Assembly: GCA_019359155.1 (NCBI GenBank)
Contig: JAHHHV010000017.1
Coordinates: 1 to 50,558, forward strand
DNA: 50,558 nucleotides
DNA from: Pegethrix bostrychoides GSE-TBD4-15B
GTDB taxonomy: Bacteria; Cyanobacteriota; Cyanobacteriia; Elainellales; Elainellaceae
Direction of reading: 5' to 3'
Part shown: positions 11,993-39,601 of the stretch, one piece after another
Layout: every line of letters begins with the position of its first letter
Numbering within the stretch: position 1 is the stretch's first letter
Notes under the pieces: generated by a model
What the model was told of the DNA's origin: nothing
The model's input: only the letters and a program-made list of their open reading frames with translations
The model's database searches: none
Position numbers and translations under genes: made by a program

Positions 11993-13459
11993 ATGACCTC
12001 CGAACTATTGAAACGTCCAATTCTGCTGGGTGGCCTAGGCATAACTGCCGCAGCTTGGCTGCTGCAAGGCTTTGATCCCGGCGTAATTCACTTGGGAAGC
12101 ACGGCAGTTTGGAGCGCGATTGCGGTTGGTTCTGGACTCTGGTGGTTCAAGCAGATGGGCAAGCCGCAGCCGATTGTGCAAACAGTGCAGACCATCGACC
12201 GAGCGGTAGTTGAGCAGAGATTTCAGGCGGTTACGACGCAGATTGACCAGCTTGCCCAGGAGTTGCTTTTGGCCAACTCTACGGCCAACTCTACGGCCAA
12301 CTCTGCGGAGCCAGCTGAACCCGAAATCACGCGAGCGCTGCGTCAGAAGCTGGCAGCGCTGGGTCAGGAGCTAGAGCGCCAAATGCTGAGAGTGGCGGTT
12401 CTGGGCAGTGCATCCGTCGGCAAAACGGCTCTGGCTCAAGCGCTGCCAGAGAGCCTGATGCCCGTCGCTGAGGTGACACTGACCCATAGCTCACCGGACG
12501 GCTCGCCCGATCTAGCGCAGCTATCTCATACCGATTTGGTGCTGTTTGTAATCTGCGGCGACTTGAGCGAGTCAGACTTTCAGACAGTGCAAACCTTGCT
12601 TCAGCAGCATTATCGACTGCTGGTGCTGTTCAACAAGCAAGATCAGTATTTGCCTGCCGATCGGCCTGTGATTTTGCAGCAGATCCGCAACCGCCTACAT
12701 CATCTGCTAGAGGCGACAGATATCATCGGGATTTCGGCTCAGCCTGCACCCTTGAAAGTGCGCCAGCACCAGGCTGACGGCACGGTTGAGGATCGGATTG
12801 AGCAGCCGACTTCTGAGCTGCTGTCCCTGCAAACGAGACTACAGCAGGCGATTGAACAGCCCAAATCGCTGGTGCTGGCTACCGTTTTTCGGCAGACAGA
12901 GGCGCTCAGCGCCATAGCGCGAGCCGAACTTAATCAATTGCGTCGCCGTCGAGCTATGCCAGTTGTGGAGCAATATCAGTGGGTAGCGGCGGCGGCGGCT
13001 TTTGCCAACCCGCTGCCCAGCCTTGACCTGCTGACAACGGCGACGATCAACGCTCAAATGGTGATGGATTTGGGAGCGCTCTACCATCAGCAGTTTTCGC
13101 TAGACCAAGCCAAAACTGTCGCGGCTAGCCTAGGTAGCCAGATGGTGAAGCTGGGCTTGGTTGAAATGGCGAGTCAGGCGATTTCACCACTACTCAAAAG
13201 CCATGCGCTCACCTATGTCGCAGGCGGCACGCTTCAGGGACTGAGCGCCGCCTATTTGACTCGCGTGGCGGGCTTGAGCTTGGTGGAATATTTTGAGGAG
13301 CAGAGCCAGTCTGAAACAACAGGTTCAGTTCAAATCGACGGCCTGGTGCAAAAAGTGAAGGCTGTGTTTCAGGACAATCAGCGCTCGGCGTTCCTGAAAA
13401 ATTTGGTTAAGCAGGGTTTGGCGCGGCTGCCTCAGGCTGCTCCAGGGGCTGGTGCCTAG
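11993..13459 (+). CDS. membrane-associated GTPase with DUF697-like C-terminus
   Basis: A 488-residue protein of a family common in cyanobacteria. Two hydrophobic segments at residues ~10-60 suggest membrane anchoring. A coiled-coil-like stretch follows, then a small GTPase domain: Walker A GSASVGKT near residues 138-145 and NKQD at about 214-217. The G3 motif is degenerate (no clear DxxG). The C-terminal ~200 residues (FANPLPSLDLLTTATINAQMV..., LTYVAGGTLQGLSAAYLTRVAG) match the DUF697/YcjF-like hydrophobic domain. A 12-base unit is repeated in tandem at 12273-12308 (NSTA repeats). Function unknown; the family is linked to membrane or envelope stress. Confidence 0.8.
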   Translation: MTSELLKRPILLGGLGITAAAWLLQGFDPGVIHLGSTAVWSAIAVGSGLWWFKQMGKPQPIVQTVQTIDRAVVEQRFQAVTTQIDQLAQELLLANSTANSTANSAEPAEPEITRALRQKLAALGQELERQMLRVAVLGSASVGKTALAQALPESLMPVAEVTLTHSSPDGSPDLAQLSHTDLVLFVICGDLSESDFQTVQTLLQQHYRLLVLFNKQDQYLPADRPVILQQIRNRLHHLLEATDIIGISAQPAPLKVRQHQADGTVEDRIEQPTSELLSLQTRLQQAIEQPKSLVLATVFRQTEALSAIARAELNQLRRRRAMPVVEQYQWVAAAAAFANPLPSLDLLTTATINAQMVMDLGALYHQQFSLDQAKTVAASLGSQMVKLGLVEMASQAISPLLKSHALTYVAGGTLQGLSAAYLTRVAGLSLVEYFEEQSQSETTGSVQIDGLVQKVKAVFQDNQRSAFLKNLVKQGLARLPQAAPGAGA

Positions 13460-13460
13460 C

Positions 13461-13694
13461 TTAAAAGGTCGGGTCATGCTCAGCATCCCAGCAGGTTTCG
13501 TCCTGCCAGGTGCGGCCTGTTTGCACACAGTCAGCCTCAGTCTTTAGCCAGGGAATTCCGGTTGAAAAAACGCTCTGCTGAGCTCCCATCAGCCAGGGCA
13601 AGAGTTCGCAGAGCCAGCCTCCAACCAAGGCGCTCAGCAATATTGCCAGCAGACTGGCTTTGGTTACAGCAACCTGCGAAGACTGACTTTTCAT
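13461..13694 (-). CDS. small single-span membrane protein, cyanobacterial
   Basis: A 77-residue protein: short polar N-terminus, one membrane helix (ASLLAILLSALVGGWLCELL) and a tail with 'GIPWLKTEADCVQTGRTWQDETCWDAEHDPTF' features, including two cysteines spaced 13 apart. I recall similar conserved hypothetical proteins in cyanobacteria but no function. The frame is open further upstream (to 13769), but the Met at 13694 removes an unusual hydrophobic leader. Its stop is 1 base from the end of the GTPase gene, so the two are tightly convergent. Confidence 0.6.
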   Translation of the reverse strand: MKSQSSQVAVTKASLLAILLSALVGGWLCELLPWLMGAQQSVFSTGIPWLKTEADCVQTGRTWQDETCWDAEHDPTF

Positions 13695-14023
13695 AAAGAT
13701 ACTGAAGATCTGAGGGAACACTGAAAAACCGTATCGGTACTGAGTAGAACTGAGTAGAACTGAGCGCAATCACGATTATTTCACGATTATTTTAGTTCAG
13801 GTGACTCGCACAACAAGCCTTAAAGTCACAAAATGTCCGAAATTACACCTAATTTTAAAGATAATGTGAAGTGCAAAAAGCAACACCCTGCAGATTACTG
13901 CGGTCGTGGCTGCGACAATCTACCCAGCTATTTCTTTAGTAGTTTTGGGATCGATATAAATTCATCTCTTAAAATCTATTTACACAGCGCCCTGTTATAT
14001 AACACCCTGAAGCATATCTAAAT
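13695..14023. other. 329-base AT-rich intergenic region with short tandem repeats
   Basis: ACTGAGTAGA is repeated about 2.6 times at 13739-13764, and TCACGATTATT occurs twice at 13770-13791. These lie upstream of the minus-strand small membrane protein. The 62-residue plus-strand frame at 13833-14021 lacks a ribosome-binding site and any family pattern; I do not call it. Confidence 0.55.
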
Positions 14024-15148
14024 CTATTCATCAATCTGCCACAGCTCTTTGTTGTAGCCTTCATCCAGCACTTTCTTAGGCCGCAGCACCAGAGTCAGCT
14101 TGCCTAAAATTGCCAGATCTGGCGCAGCCTCAAACCAATCGATTTGGATCTGTCCGGCGCGCTCTACCACAAAATAGCCGTCGGCATCCCATTGGCGCTC
14201 AGCGCGGTCAATTAGCAGCAGCACTTCTTCCACTTCCTCCGAGGCAGACTGCGGCGCATTGCCTTCGGGGAGCGCATTGCTTTCAGTCAAAATCAGCACC
14301 GGATCTTCAGCCGCTAGCACCACCTGCCAGCCCGGTAGCGCCGCCCAAGCACCTGCGCCCGCAAATCGCACCATCTGAAACTGCCCCTCGCTCACGGCTA
14401 GCGGCACTGCCTGTAGCTCAGAAGCAGTCAAGGGCAGCTTCCCTGCCACTGGCAGAATCCGAGGCTGGTCGTTAGCCGACTCCAGCCGATAAAACGGCAG
14501 ACGGGGAGCCTGACGGCTGCGGCTGATGCTGAAATCGGTCAGCAGCTTTTCGACTTCCCGGCGGGCTAAATCACTCTTGGCGAACCGCAGCGCTTGGGCA
14601 ATCAGCCGCGAGCGCATCTGGAGATCAGCCTGCTGTCGCGCCAGCTTCCAATAAAAATAGGCGACCGCATCATCGGGATAGGCTGCAAATTCGGCAGGCT
14701 GTCGCGCCAGCAGGCGGGCAAATTCTTTCAGCGCCTTGGCCACTTCATGCGCCCCCTCTGAGTCAATGCCGCGCTCAACTAATAGCGTCGCCGCCGCCAC
14801 GCGCTCAGGCTGAGTCAAAATCCGCAACTCGTAGAGTGAATCGCTGCCTGTCTGTTCAAATCGCTTCAGCACCGACTCAGATGCCCCGCCGCTCACCAGC
14901 GAGCTGTAAACCTGCGCCGCTACCGTCATCTGGTTTTGCTGAATCGGCTCAAATCCAGTCTCTTCAAAAATCTGCTGCTGCGAAAGTCCGCTCTTTTGCA
15001 GGGTTTGGCAGGCTTGCCCCCAAGCAACCCAGTTGCCTTCTTTGCGCCTGAGCGATTCTAGCAGCGGCTGTAGATCGGCTAGAGCGCTTGGATCAGAGCT
15101 GGAAGCCCCGCCGGAAGCAGGCAGATGGTCGGGAGGTTTAGCGGTCAT
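14024..15148 (-). CDS. raf1: Rubisco accumulation factor 1 (Raf1)
   Basis: A 374-residue chaperone that assembles Rubisco large subunits into RbcL8 before RbcS binds. The N-terminal Raf1-alpha region shows the conserved 'LRRKEGNWVAWGQACQ', 'SQQQIFEETGFEP' and 'QNQMTVAAQVYSSL' blocks. The middle helical repeat region (ALKEFARLLARQPAEF, YFYWKLARQQADL) follows, then the beta dimerisation domain (~220-374) with 'RLPFYRLESANDQPRILPVAG' and the ending 'LTLVLRPKKVLDEGYNKELW'. Length and order fit the cyanobacterial family. It stands alone; rbc genes are not in this window. Confidence 0.95.
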   Translation of the reverse strand: MTAKPPDHLPASGGASSSDPSALADLQPLLESLRRKEGNWVAWGQACQTLQKSGLSQQQIFEETGFEPIQQNQMTVAAQVYSSLVSGGASESVLKRFEQTGSDSLYELRILTQPERVAAATLLVERGIDSEGAHEVAKALKEFARLLARQPAEFAAYPDDAVAYFYWKLARQQADLQMRSRLIAQALRFAKSDLARREVEKLLTDFSISRSRQAPRLPFYRLESANDQPRILPVAGKLPLTASELQAVPLAVSEGQFQMVRFAGAGAWAALPGWQVVLAAEDPVLILTESNALPEGNAPQSASEEVEEVLLLIDRAERQWDADGYFVVERAGQIQIDWFEAAPDLAILGKLTLVLRPKKVLDEGYNKELWQIDE

Positions 15149-15325
15149 AGGGCGAAGGGCTGAGTGCAGGCTTAAATTTGAGTACAGTCTCTAATTCTAG
15201 TGGCTGTACTGCCTAAGCTGGCAGTTATGCAACACTTCGATTCAATTTCAGCAACTCTTTTCCAGCGATTCCTGCACCAGACTTGACGAATGGGACAGCA
15301 GCACGGCATTATAGTAGACGCACAA

Positions 15326-15398
15326 GGGGCTATAGCACAGTTGGTAGCGCGTCTCAATGGCATTGAGAAGGTCAGCGGTTCGAATCCGCTTAGCTCCA
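15326..15398 (+). tRNA. tRNA-Ala (GGC)
   Basis: A 73-base cloverleaf with anticodon GGC in the loop ATGGCAT between TCTCA and TGAGA. The acceptor stem GGGGCTA/TAGCTCC carries the G3-U70 wobble pair, the alanine identity element. Discriminator A73 is present and CCA is not encoded. Coordinates are good to within one base. Confidence 0.95.
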
Positions 15399-15764
15399 TC
15401 CTTAGTTGACAGTTAAATAGCTGTATTCAGTATCACGATTTGCTGTGTATTTGTTTACAACTTGTGCATTTGTATAATGTGCATCTATTGAACAGCATAA
15501 TTTTCTATGTGCTGATTTAATATTCCTTTGATAAATAAGCAGGGAGTCGCTAAATCAAATGGTGATTCCCCTGACTCTCTGTCTAATCCGTTTTCTGATA
15601 CTTTGATATCTTTTGATATCTTTTGATATCTTTTGATATCTTTTGATATCTTTTGATATCTTTTGATATCTTTTGATATCTTTTGATATCTTTTGATATC
15701 TATAGTTTTGAAGTAAGAATCTTCCGCAATGAGATAGCTGTTGTGCTTGACAAAAGGCTGATGA
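15399..15764. promoter_or_regulatory. 366-base leader region of the MFS transporter
   Basis: The region between tRNA-Ala and the transporter holds AT-rich sequence (TTTGTATAATGTG near 15470-15482, which resembles an extended -10) and the tandem repeat at 15601-15700. No coding frame in it is credible: the long minus-strand frame across the repeat just translates the repeat. Confidence 0.5.
15601..15700. repeat. ten tandem copies of a 10-bp unit (TTTTGATATC)
   Basis: TTTTGATATC is repeated ten times without spacers (the first copy begins CTTT). The unit length is close to one helical turn and each copy has a T4 tract, so the tracts are in phase, a design expected to give intrinsically curved DNA. 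Each copy also contains the palindrome GATATC. The array ends 64 bases before the MFS transporter start. Confidence 0.97.
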
Positions 15765-17219
15765 ATGACGGCTGAAGCTCCAGTCTCGTTTGAGGAGCGC
15801 TTAGATGCCTCCCCAATCACCCGCACCATGTGGCTGCTCTGGCTGCTGTCGGCGGGATTGATTGCCCTTGACGGGTTTGATTTTTTTATCATCGGCGTGG
15901 CGATGCCGTTTCTAGAGCGTGACTTTGGCCTGACTGCGGCCTCCATTGGCGCAGTCGCCACCGCAGCGGTTGCAGGATCGCTAATTGGCTCTCTGACGCT
16001 GGGGCCAATCACCGACCGGGTGGGGCGGCAGATCATGCTGATTGTAGACATCGCGATTTTTGTGATTGCCACAGCGGGCACAGCTCTAGCTTGGAATACC
16101 GCTTCGCTGATCGCCTTTCGTTTTTTGGTGGGAGTCGGGATTGGGGCAGACTACCCGATCAGCGTCTCGTACATTACCGAGAATATTCCGGCGCGCTACC
16201 GGGGACGGATGGTGATTGGCGCATTTACCTTTCAGGCTGTCGGAGCATTATTAGGGGCGCTCACCGGACTGGTCGTGATTCATCAGTTTCGCGTTCTCTA
16301 TCCTGACATCGACCAGATTGCCATTCAGTACGCATGGCGTTGGATGCTGGGAGTGGGGGCGCTCTTGGCGGTAGCGGTGGCGGTCATTCGGCTCAGCTTT
16401 ACTTTAGAAAGCCCTCGTTACTTTATCAGCCGCGGCGAATACGTAGAAGCCTCTAAAGCTGCCACTCAGCTCCTAGAAACTCCTGTCACGATTACGCCAA
16501 AGCTAGAGCCGCCCGTCTCAACAGAACGACCAACCTACGGCACTTTGTTTAGCTCCTGCAATCGCCGCAGCACAATTCTGGCCTCAGTGCCCTGGTTCTT
16601 GCAAGATATCGCCACCTATGGAGTCGGCATTTTTACCCCCACGATTATTGGAATGCTGGCTTTTTCAGGCGAAACTGACTTTATGGCGCGGGAGATGGGT
16701 TCTGCCCAGGGAGCGGCAGTGGTGGATATCTCTTTGATTCTGGGCTTTATCTGCGCCATTTTGCTCGTCGAAAAGCTAGGCCGCATCCGGCTTCAGATGA
16801 TTGGCTTTTTGGGGATGGCGATAGGACTAAGCATATTGGCCGCTTCTGATCTGCTGCCTGCTGGCAGTCAGGGCAACATTGTCCTGGTGCTGATCGGCTT
16901 TTTGTGCTTTAACCTGATGATGAACGCTGGCTCGAATGCCACTACGTTTCTGCTCTCAGGGGAGGTCTTCCCGACCGCGATTCGAGCAACTGGGGCTGGC
17001 TTTGCAGCTGCCTTTGCCAAAGCGGGGGCTGTCGTGGGTACGTCTGTGCTGCCGATTCTGCAAAAGTCTTGGGGCGTGCCGCCTTTGCTGATTGCGATGT
17101 CGGTCTGCTGTGTGCTGGCTGCCGTAATCACGTTTGCCTTCCGGATTGACACGACAGATCAGTCCTTGGAGACTATACGGTCGGAAGGAACATCAGCTGA
17201 TCCGGTGCTTGCAGAATAA
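15765..17219 (+). CDS. MFS transporter, sugar-porter-like family
   Basis: A 484-residue inner-membrane transporter with about 12 membrane segments. The conserved loop 2-3 motif appears as 'GPITDRVGRQIMLI', the RFxxGxGxG motif in 'AFRFLVGVGIGADYPISVSYITENIPARYRGRM', and 'FTLESPRYFISRGEYVEA' matches the PESPR-like signature after helix 6. These place it in the Sugar_tr group (sugar, phosphate or aromatic-acid proton symporters). Substrate cannot be decided. The 'ASNATTFLLSGEVFPTAIRATG' block in the second half is also typical. AAAGG about 8 bases upstream supports the ATG. A broken DUF202 gene follows. Confidence 0.88.
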   Translation: MTAEAPVSFEERLDASPITRTMWLLWLLSAGLIALDGFDFFIIGVAMPFLERDFGLTAASIGAVATAAVAGSLIGSLTLGPITDRVGRQIMLIVDIAIFVIATAGTALAWNTASLIAFRFLVGVGIGADYPISVSYITENIPARYRGRMVIGAFTFQAVGALLGALTGLVVIHQFRVLYPDIDQIAIQYAWRWMLGVGALLAVAVAVIRLSFTLESPRYFISRGEYVEASKAATQLLETPVTITPKLEPPVSTERPTYGTLFSSCNRRSTILASVPWFLQDIATYGVGIFTPTIIGMLAFSGETDFMAREMGSAQGAAVVDISLILGFICAILLVEKLGRIRLQMIGFLGMAIGLSILAASDLLPAGSQGNIVLVLIGFLCFNLMMNAGSNATTFLLSGEVFPTAIRATGAGFAAAFAKAGAVVGTSVLPILQKSWGVPPLLIAMSVCCVLAAVITFAFRIDTTDQSLETIRSEGTSADPVLAE

Positions 17220-17271
17220 ATTTACAGGATAGGGATTTTGGAATCGAACGCTTATTTTGAGGAGACTGCCA

Positions 17272-17480
17272 ATGAATGAGCCAATGCTAAATCCCTATCC
17301 ACCCGATGCTCAGTCAGAGCTAGCCCGCGAACAGCATCGCGTTGTTGCCGGATCCGCTCACTGCTGTCCTTTGTCCGCATCAGCGTCACGTTCATTAGCA
17401 TTAGAGTCGGGATTGCTGAAGATGAGTATGCTGTTTGGGTATCCTCTTCTATCACTCTAGGTAGAGGAAAAAATGACTAA
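17272..17480 (+). pseudogene. frameshifted DUF202-family membrane protein
   Basis: Starts with ATG after a good GAGGAG site and reads MNEPMLNPYPPDAQSELARE then QHRVVAG. From 17343 the same reading continues in another frame as RSLLSFVRISVTFISIRVG then IAEDEYAVW, stopping at 17478-17480. Together 'ELAREQHRVVA-DRSLLSFVRISVTFISI' is the first helix of a DUF202 protein. At the junction GCCGGATCCGCTC differs from an expected GCCGATCGCTC by two inserted bases. The following membrane helices are absent, so it is also truncated. Confidence 0.7.
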
Positions 17481-38644: not shown

Positions 38645-39601
38645 TCAGTACTTCAGCATACCAAGATTACTCTCACAGCTGGGCGCTGGCTGAACAACTG
38701 GCATTTGTGTAACTGGCATTCGTGTAATTGGTATTTGTGTAACTGGCATCTGGGCGACTGGCATCTGGGCAATTGAGCAGCCTGTAAGCTGAGGTTCAGG
38801 CTGAGATGCAAGCTGAGATGCCAAGACCTGCGGATCGAGCTGTACAAAAGCGGCTAGGTGAATCTGATCGCGGTCAAGTTCCCAGCTGAGAATGCGAGCC
38901 GTGACCCCGGCAGATTCCAGTCTGGCCAGATCGAGCTGCTGGCTGATGTTGCCGACGAGCAGTTCGACAAACTGCGGCGGCAGTGGCGTACCGTCGATTG
39001 AAATAGCCGGATCAATCAGCTGGAGCTGACGACCTGAGAGAATTTCAACACCAGACTCGATGGCAATGGTCAGCTGTAGGTCGGTCTGCTGCGACTTGAG
39101 CTGAGTCTGAAAGCGCAGCCGATGTGAATCCAATAGTTCTAACTGTGGCTCTACCAAGTCGTAGCGTTCCAGCTGAGCTGCCGCCGACCCCAGCAAATCC
39201 AGGCTGAGATTTTGCAGCCGCTTGGCGACTAGGGGCGAGCGCAGGGCGCGGTTGATATCTTCACGGGTCAGCGCTATCCGGATGCCTGCATTCAGGGGCT
39301 GCTCTAGGACAATTTTGCCGCGCTGCAGGGCAGCTGGACTCACCGTAATCGGGTCAGTTTCGACTTCCAGCGCTTCAATCCGCAGGTCTGGGGCGGGATA
39401 CAGCCCGCGTCCGGCCACCCGCAGCCGTTCAATTCTGCCTTGCGCGACTCGATAGCTAGGTGTGTTATCCACCCGTACCGCTAAGACTTCTGCATCCTGA
39501 AGCTGACTGCGGATGGCGCTGGCCGTCAGTTGCTCACTGATCAAGCCAGCAGGAGAAGCTAATGAAAGCAGCGATAGAACTAGAATTGTCAAAAATTCCA
39601 T
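38645..39601 (-). CDS. DUF2993 / LmeA-like lipid-binding protein
   Basis: A 318-residue protein with a hydrophobic N-terminus (MEFLTILVLSLLSLASPAGLISEQL). The body follows DUF2993: 'LQDAEVLAVRVDNTPSYRVAQGRIERLRVAGRGLY', 'LEQPLNAGIRIALTREDINRAL', 'LIDPAISIDGTPLPPQFVELLVG'. Members are envelope proteins that bind phospholipid or help outer-membrane assembly. The C-terminal tail repeats a 5-residue unit (AQMPV, TQIPI, TRMPV, TQMPV). It sits 24 bases upstream of chlD on the same strand and may be co-transcribed. Confidence 0.85.
   Translation of the reverse strand: MEFLTILVLSLLSLASPAGLISEQLTASAIRSQLQDAEVLAVRVDNTPSYRVAQGRIERLRVAGRGLYPAPDLRIEALEVETDPITVSPAALQRGKIVLEQPLNAGIRIALTREDINRALRSPLVAKRLQNLSLDLLGSAAAQLERYDLVEPQLELLDSHRLRFQTQLKSQQTDLQLTIAIESGVEILSGRQLQLIDPAISIDGTPLPPQFVELLVGNISQQLDLARLESAGVTARILSWELDRDQIHLAAFVQLDPQVLASQLASQPEPQLTGCSIAQMPVAQMPVTQIPITRMPVTQMPVVQPAPSCESNLGMLKY

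Follow-up and report, generated by a model that had tools for sequence, protein, structure and literature searches.

The window analysed here is the whole of a 50,558-nucleotide stretch of Pegethrix bostrychoides GSE-TBD4-15B (contig JAHHHV010000017.1, positions 1 to 50,558). Within it, a tRNA-Ala gene is followed by an intergenic region and then by a gene for an MFS transporter, and the intergenic region carries a perfect tandem array together with several short promoter-like sequences. The features of the locus are as follows.

14024 to 15148, minus strand: raf1 (Rubisco accumulation factor 1), assigned with Pfam and divergent from tRNA-Ala
15326 to 15398, plus strand: tRNA-Ala (GGC)
15399 to 15764, plus strand: intergenic region from tRNA-Ala to MFS, 31% G+C (800-kb genome sample: 53%)
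15473 to 15478, plus strand: TATAAT, a perfect -10-like hexamer 5' of the array, by consensus only; its best -35 partner is TTGTTT (3/6) with a 16-base spacer
15493 to 15514, plus strand: terminator-like stem-loop (7 pairs, 3 of them G-C) followed by a T-rich stretch
15591 to 15601, plus strand: degenerate unit-like sequence TTTTCTGATAC, directly 5' of the array, read from the sequence
15602 to 15701, no strand assigned: tandem array, 10.0 copies of TTTGATATCT, all identical (Tandem Repeats Finder)
15693 to 15720, plus strand: promoter-like pair, TTGATA (within the final repeat unit) and AAGAAT with 16 bases between them; a consensus match only, 9/12
15701 to 15706, plus strand: TATAGT, a -10-like hexamer adjoining the array, by consensus match only; its best -35 scores 2/6
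15706 to 15715, plus strand: degenerate unit-like sequence TTTTGAAGTA, directly 3' of the array, read from the sequence
15752 to 15757, plus strand: AAAAGG, Shine-Dalgarno-like, 7 bases 5' of the MFS ATG, read from the sequence
15765 to 17219, plus strand: MFS transporter gene, 484 aa, Sugar_tr / MFS_1 (Pfam)

Tandem Repeats Finder (TRF) reports the array at 15602-15701 with period 10, 10.0 copies, 100% matches, no indels and a score of 200; the second-highest score among its 61 rows for the window is 89. The unit TTTGATATCT is TTTTGATATC in the register of the preliminary description, which had counted ten copies with a T4 tract at every 10 bases. The array itself holds up but the ten T4 tracts do not: exact copies of TTTTGATATC number nine (15611-15700), and because the first copy, at 15601-15610, reads CTTTGATATC, nine of the tracts are T4 and one is T3. 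Unit matches at one mismatch number 12 in the window versus 2.51 ± 1.70 in shuffles, with none of 100 shuffles reaching 12, and by both TRF and the shuffles these are head-to-tail copies far above chance. Two other points of that description are borne out, namely the GATATC palindrome in each unit and the placement of the array, outside genes, between tRNA-Ala and the MFS start, with 63 bases between its last base and the ATG. The degenerate sequence TTTTCTGATAC is a possible seed of the expansion. Elsewhere in the window, a second short array (38696-38764) has a 15-bp unit in 4.6 copies with 81% matches.

The scan that gave the TTGATA-AAGAAT pair returned nine promoter-like sites, seven of which lie wholly within the array and arise from the repeat itself. 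On the opposite strand, an ORF of 198 aa (15485-16081, minus strand), in which the repeat is read as the peptide KRYQKISKDI, was rejected as a gene because it has no Pfam match and overlaps the 5' end of the MFS gene; the minus strand of the array is stop-free in every frame by construction of the repeat.

The MFS product matches Sugar_tr (E 3.6e-54) as well as MFS_1 in Pfam, scores under the cut-off for all 25 NCBIfam families listed of the 33 matched, and has phosphate transporters as its best-scoring solved relatives. Raf1, together with ChlI, points to a cyanobacterial genome. Some match to it, in many cases weak, was found in 49 of 60 genomes, our own included. We compared 12 other homologue loci at 43–78% identity over most of the protein together with one partial homologue; no tRNA was found in the fetched flank of any of these 13, of which L022 starts at a contig edge and is uninformative. 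At 11 of 29 other raf1 loci the fetched flank contains tRNA-Ala(GGC). By eye, the bases 3' of this tRNA differ in each of the 12 loci listed, the present one included. In two relatives an ORF with a match of note lies there: one (L060, 3101-4090) matches TniQ under the Pfam cut-off (25.2 versus 27 bits), and the other, a short ORF (L073, 2798-3136), matches phage integrase at E 1.7e-23. These ORFs suggest that the 3' side of the raf1-linked tRNA-Ala may be an insertion site. An integration scar at the tRNA 3' end was looked for and finds no support, as no second copy of that end is present within the window at up to three mismatches. The flank on the raf1 side (15149-15325) returned its own match and only three others, of 31–42 bases (E 0.003-0.007).

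Among the 36 genomes of the order that were searched, ours alone has the exact two-unit pattern, and it is likewise the one genome of 386 cyanobacteria with the exact three-unit pattern. A search of 35 relatives with the 203 bases 5' of the array (the first 203 of the intergenic region) gave no match at E up to 0.01. Judged by these comparisons, both the array and its setting are specific to the lineage; that all copies are identical points to recent or ongoing homogenisation of the array. A conserved regulatory site was considered and rejected, the array being missing from the 35 others in the order and the 385 others in the phylum. So was a mobile repeat family in the form of a dispersed element: the two-unit pattern has eight matches in the draft genome, all of them within the array.

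Among named genomes (genome_contigs), 18 stretches of two or more units were found, 16 of which have by reading just two complete units; only a Shewanella (five) and a Finegoldia (three) have more. The three-unit pattern was not found in viral contigs. In Shewanella sp. c952 (L047, 6625-6680) the same decamer unit is expanded, with six GATATC and five complete units, about 30 bases upstream of the start of a 125-aa minus-strand ORF without a Pfam match; a DUF4238 gene lies on the other side of the array, followed at some distance by an FRG-domain gene. When 60 genomes around this Shewanella were searched, its own was the only one with the array, and we rejected the array as a sign of shared function and treat it as an independent expansion.

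Curvature was modelled with a Bolshoy-type wedge model and an AA-only wedge model, and compared with 300 dinucleotide shuffles made inside the array only and with the 800-kb genome sample (798,040 positions). Over 40 bp the Bolshoy-type model gives 104.6 degrees, reached by none of the 300 shuffles and none of the 798,040 sample positions, and the AA-only model gives 85.0 degrees, an angle that is likewise reached by none of the shuffles and none of the sample; end-to-end shortening in the AA-only model is reached by 6.1e-05 of sample positions, and its 60-bp angle by 5e-06 of the sample. Over 85 bp the coil turns back, so that the Bolshoy-type angle of 59.4 degrees is unexceptional (51 of 300 shuffles and 5.8% of sample positions attain it); the shortening over the same length, 1.81, is unmatched. 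In this model the units wind as a left-handed screw that takes about 10.6 of them to complete a superhelical turn. An earlier and cruder run, with mononucleotide shuffles within the flanks, gave 136 degrees for the array versus 153 for the top of 200 shuffles, and 72.6 degrees over 80 bp for a pure repeat; the dinucleotide shuffles confined to the array are the better control. The array is unusual in its perfection and its predicted curvature.

The preliminary description had expected strong curvature from tracts in phase with the helix, and had reasoned that a change in copy number would keep the face of the helix. As far as models go, the first expectation stands, both being exceptional by angle over 40 bp. 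The phasing is approximate: ten tracts spaced 10.0 bp apart retain 67% of a coherent bend at 10.5 bp per turn and 84% at 10.33. The constancy of the face is weakened, as each unit added, computed around the present ten copies, turns the exit by 27–28 degrees in the Bolshoy-type model and by 15–19 degrees in the AA-only model. A fair prediction is thus curved DNA in the form of a left-handed coil; a flat, exactly phased bend is not.

We next consider whether helical spacing is itself distinctive. Runs of six T4 tracts at 10-bp spacing were found in 14 of 386 cyanobacterial genomes, and an out-of-phase control, T4 at 13-bp spacing with the same codon relation, in 11 of 386. Cases that are essentially poly-T, as read from the matches, account for 6 of the 14 and 5 of the 11, leaving eight versus six. 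There is no clear excess of helical over 13-bp spacing, and with 13-bp arrays about as frequent, the idea that helical phase is the point of the array is not supported. Three species of the genus g66 (L150, L151 and L152) have similar runs of T-tracts spaced 10 bp apart (TTTTTTGTGATTTTCGCTAC...), which may be a conserved element of phased T-tracts.

Our own genome also has a perfect 13-bp array, (TTTTGAGCCACAG)n, which counts against helical phase being the point. It lies close to one end of each of the contigs C5 and C35 with 100% matches in both, in 7.8 copies on C5 (L195, 4886-4986) and at least 10.8 on C35 (L196, 4306-4445), and all the left flank present on C5, 12 bases, is identical in C35. 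The two look like one locus between an alpha-amylase-like and a molybdopterin-dehydrogenase-type gene, and the two lengths reflect either real copy variation or a repeat that assembly failed to resolve. The same caution extends to the ten assembled copies of the 10-bp array.

For a broader comparison, short arrays were defined as TRF units of 5–20 bp with 3.5 or more copies and a match rate of 90% or above. The 800-kb sample, which lay outside the contig holding the window, gave 24 such rows, two of them describing one array, and another 329 kb, among it two stretches chosen for the 13-bp array, brought the total to 32. Periods of 12, 15 and 6, which are to be expected in coding DNA, make up 24 of these; the remaining rows have periods of 13 (four rows, two being the C5/C35 array) and 7, 10, 11 and 14 (one row each). 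The 10-bp array (L110) has 4.3 copies at 93%, and the 11-bp array (L209) has 5.0 copies at 100% and lies mostly between two ORFs. Two of seven sampled loci with non-triplet periods are therefore near the helical period, too few for a test. The score of 200 for the array at the MFS gene compares with a best of 180 among short arrays outside the two chosen stretches, and the 13-bp array scores 202 and 280, above it.

We consider it probable that the array is a lineage-specific minisatellite made by slippage, with its curvature a by-product. Slippage or unequal recombination would have amplified a T4-GATATC unit of an AT-rich intergenic region until ten copies were present, and probably did so recently. 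The GATATC palindromes may aid expansion, since neighbouring pairs can fold into a hairpin when single-stranded: each strand of the array folds into five GATATC(N4)GATATC hairpins, at -17 and -18 kcal/mol (z -13.9 and -16.2; 0/200 shuffles). Hairpin folding of single strands favours slippage. The strong curvature of the models, in which the array coils left-handed through about one superhelical turn, would then arise because the unit length is 10 bp by chance. As the array adjoins promoter-like hexamers and ends 63 bases before the MFS gene, its DNA shape or the spacing it imposes may have a modest effect on how the transporter gene is transcribed.

Several observations argue for the minisatellite: the units are identical yet absent from the relatives searched; the flanks TTTTCTGATAC and TTTTGAAGTA are degenerate and unit-like; other short arrays in the same genome have non-helical periods of 7, 13 and 14 bp, the perfect (TTTTGAGCCACAG)n with its two assembled lengths among them; and the upstream 203 bases are unmatched, with no tRNA in the flanks fetched at the 13 other MFS loci. 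Against it we count the 10-bp and 11-bp arrays in the sample, although these are too few for a test, the position of the array beside -10-like hexamers combined with the top 40-bp curvature by angle, and the expansion of the same unit in Shewanella, again a short distance (about 30 bases) upstream of an ORF. The array resembles bacterial intergenic minisatellites (VNTR) in having a short unit, repeated head-to-tail and perfectly, in an intergenic position 5' of a gene, and in its absence from the relatives searched; it differs in that any variation of its copy number is hypothetical, and in a unit length near one helical turn.

A less likely explanation, though the strongest of the alternatives, is that the array is a curved-DNA upstream element and tuner, in which phased T-tracts 5' of TATAGT or AAGAAT would bend the DNA toward RNA polymerase or provide contacts for its alpha subunit, and 10-bp copy steps would tune the MFS gene. 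The 40-bp curvature, highest by angle against the 800-kb sample, speaks for it, as do the placement of the T4 tract centres 11, 21, 31 ... bases 5' of the centre of TATAGT and the overlap of the TTGATA-16-AAGAAT pair (9/12) with the array end. Yet neither of the two best -10-like hexamers has a good -35 (2/6 and 3/6), the array is present in one species only among those searched, and arrays in phase show no clear excess over those spaced at 13 bp.

Published systems lend this explanation some further weight. In Synechocystis, helically phased A-tracts are reported to be aligned with the -10 and the transcription start site genome-wide (PMC9825172); the likeness lies in A/T tracts at helical spacing 5' of a -10-like hexamer, but theirs is a genome-wide statistical pattern and ours one perfect array beside a putative -10. 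Curved DNA upstream of psbA2 (CIT/RIB) and rpoD1 (P2) of Microcystis aeruginosa K-81 is reported to promote transcription (PMC2758279). There, as predicted here, curved DNA occurs in the 5' region of a cyanobacterial gene. A transcriptional effect is reported in K-81, however, and the activating curvature of rpoD1 is right-handed, which tells against the curved-DNA explanation, whereas our array is modelled as left-handed; the accessible text on K-81 mentions no tandem array. At sabA of H. pylori the length of a T-tract is reported to tune expression as a rheostat (PMC4081817). Both repeats are near a promoter (here a possible one), where a change in length would shift the axial alignment of upstream DNA, but sabA varies in single-base steps with reported length variation and an effect on expression, and the 10-bp steps of our array are hypothetical. 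A further paper reports for some cyanobacterial species that segments with a periodicity of about 10 bp have a tendency to overlap with intergenic regions (PMC4132750), and another discusses promoter-near repeats as modulators in Mycoplasma (PMC5179023). The array may work, if at all, like these curved-DNA and promoter-repeat systems. A literature search on the repeat sequence returned nothing related by title, and one combining tandem repeats, promoters and bent DNA found no paper covering at least five of its six topics.

A more specific version, in which slippage drives a DNA-shape tuner beside a -10-like box such that changes of one unit would rotate the left-handed upstream coil by small steps and set transporter expression gradually across a population, is doubtful. 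The tunable regulator of the preliminary description is unsupported so far, with the three-unit pattern in one of 386 genomes, the upstream 203 bases unmatched and 13-bp arrays about as common.

It is rather improbable that the array acts in a leader RNA. If TATAAT at 15473-15478 is used, the array would be transcribed within a leader of about 280 nt, in which a rod of GAUAUC stems could affect mRNA stability or translation. Besides the perfect TATAAT 5' of the array, the folding of 15595-15710 (-35.3 kcal/mol, z -11.0, 0/200 shuffles) and of 15480-15600 (z -3.55, 0/200 shuffles) is consistent with this. The z-score of the array is, however, what any repeated palindrome would give, as such sequences always fold well, and the segment from the array to the start codon (15700-15790) is no more structured than expected by chance (z 0.08). 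An Rfam search of 13400-17300 at E up to 1 gave no match besides the tRNA, and the 203 bases 5' of the array are unmatched in the 35 relatives. Directly after TATAAT lies the terminator-like stem-loop, itself weak (one found versus 0.7 ± 0.8 in shuffles) and a possible end of the tRNA-Ala transcript. An operator array, in which the ten palindromes spaced 10 bp apart on one helix face would be sites for a regulator of the transporter, is very improbable: the draft genome has no exact two-unit site elsewhere, which leaves no hint of a regulon, the genome sample shows no excess of GATATC (264 observed versus 292 expected), and no regulator is present among the six neighbouring ORFs scanned with Pfam (of 23 ORFs listed).

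If the array is only a minisatellite, it offers a helically spaced repeat in clean, naturally occurring form and might serve as a locus for strain typing. If it does tune the transporter, it would be a natural ladder of curved-DNA lengths, and native alleles could then be used to probe a long-standing question, whether the curvature of upstream A-tracts determines the strength of cyanobacterial promoters.
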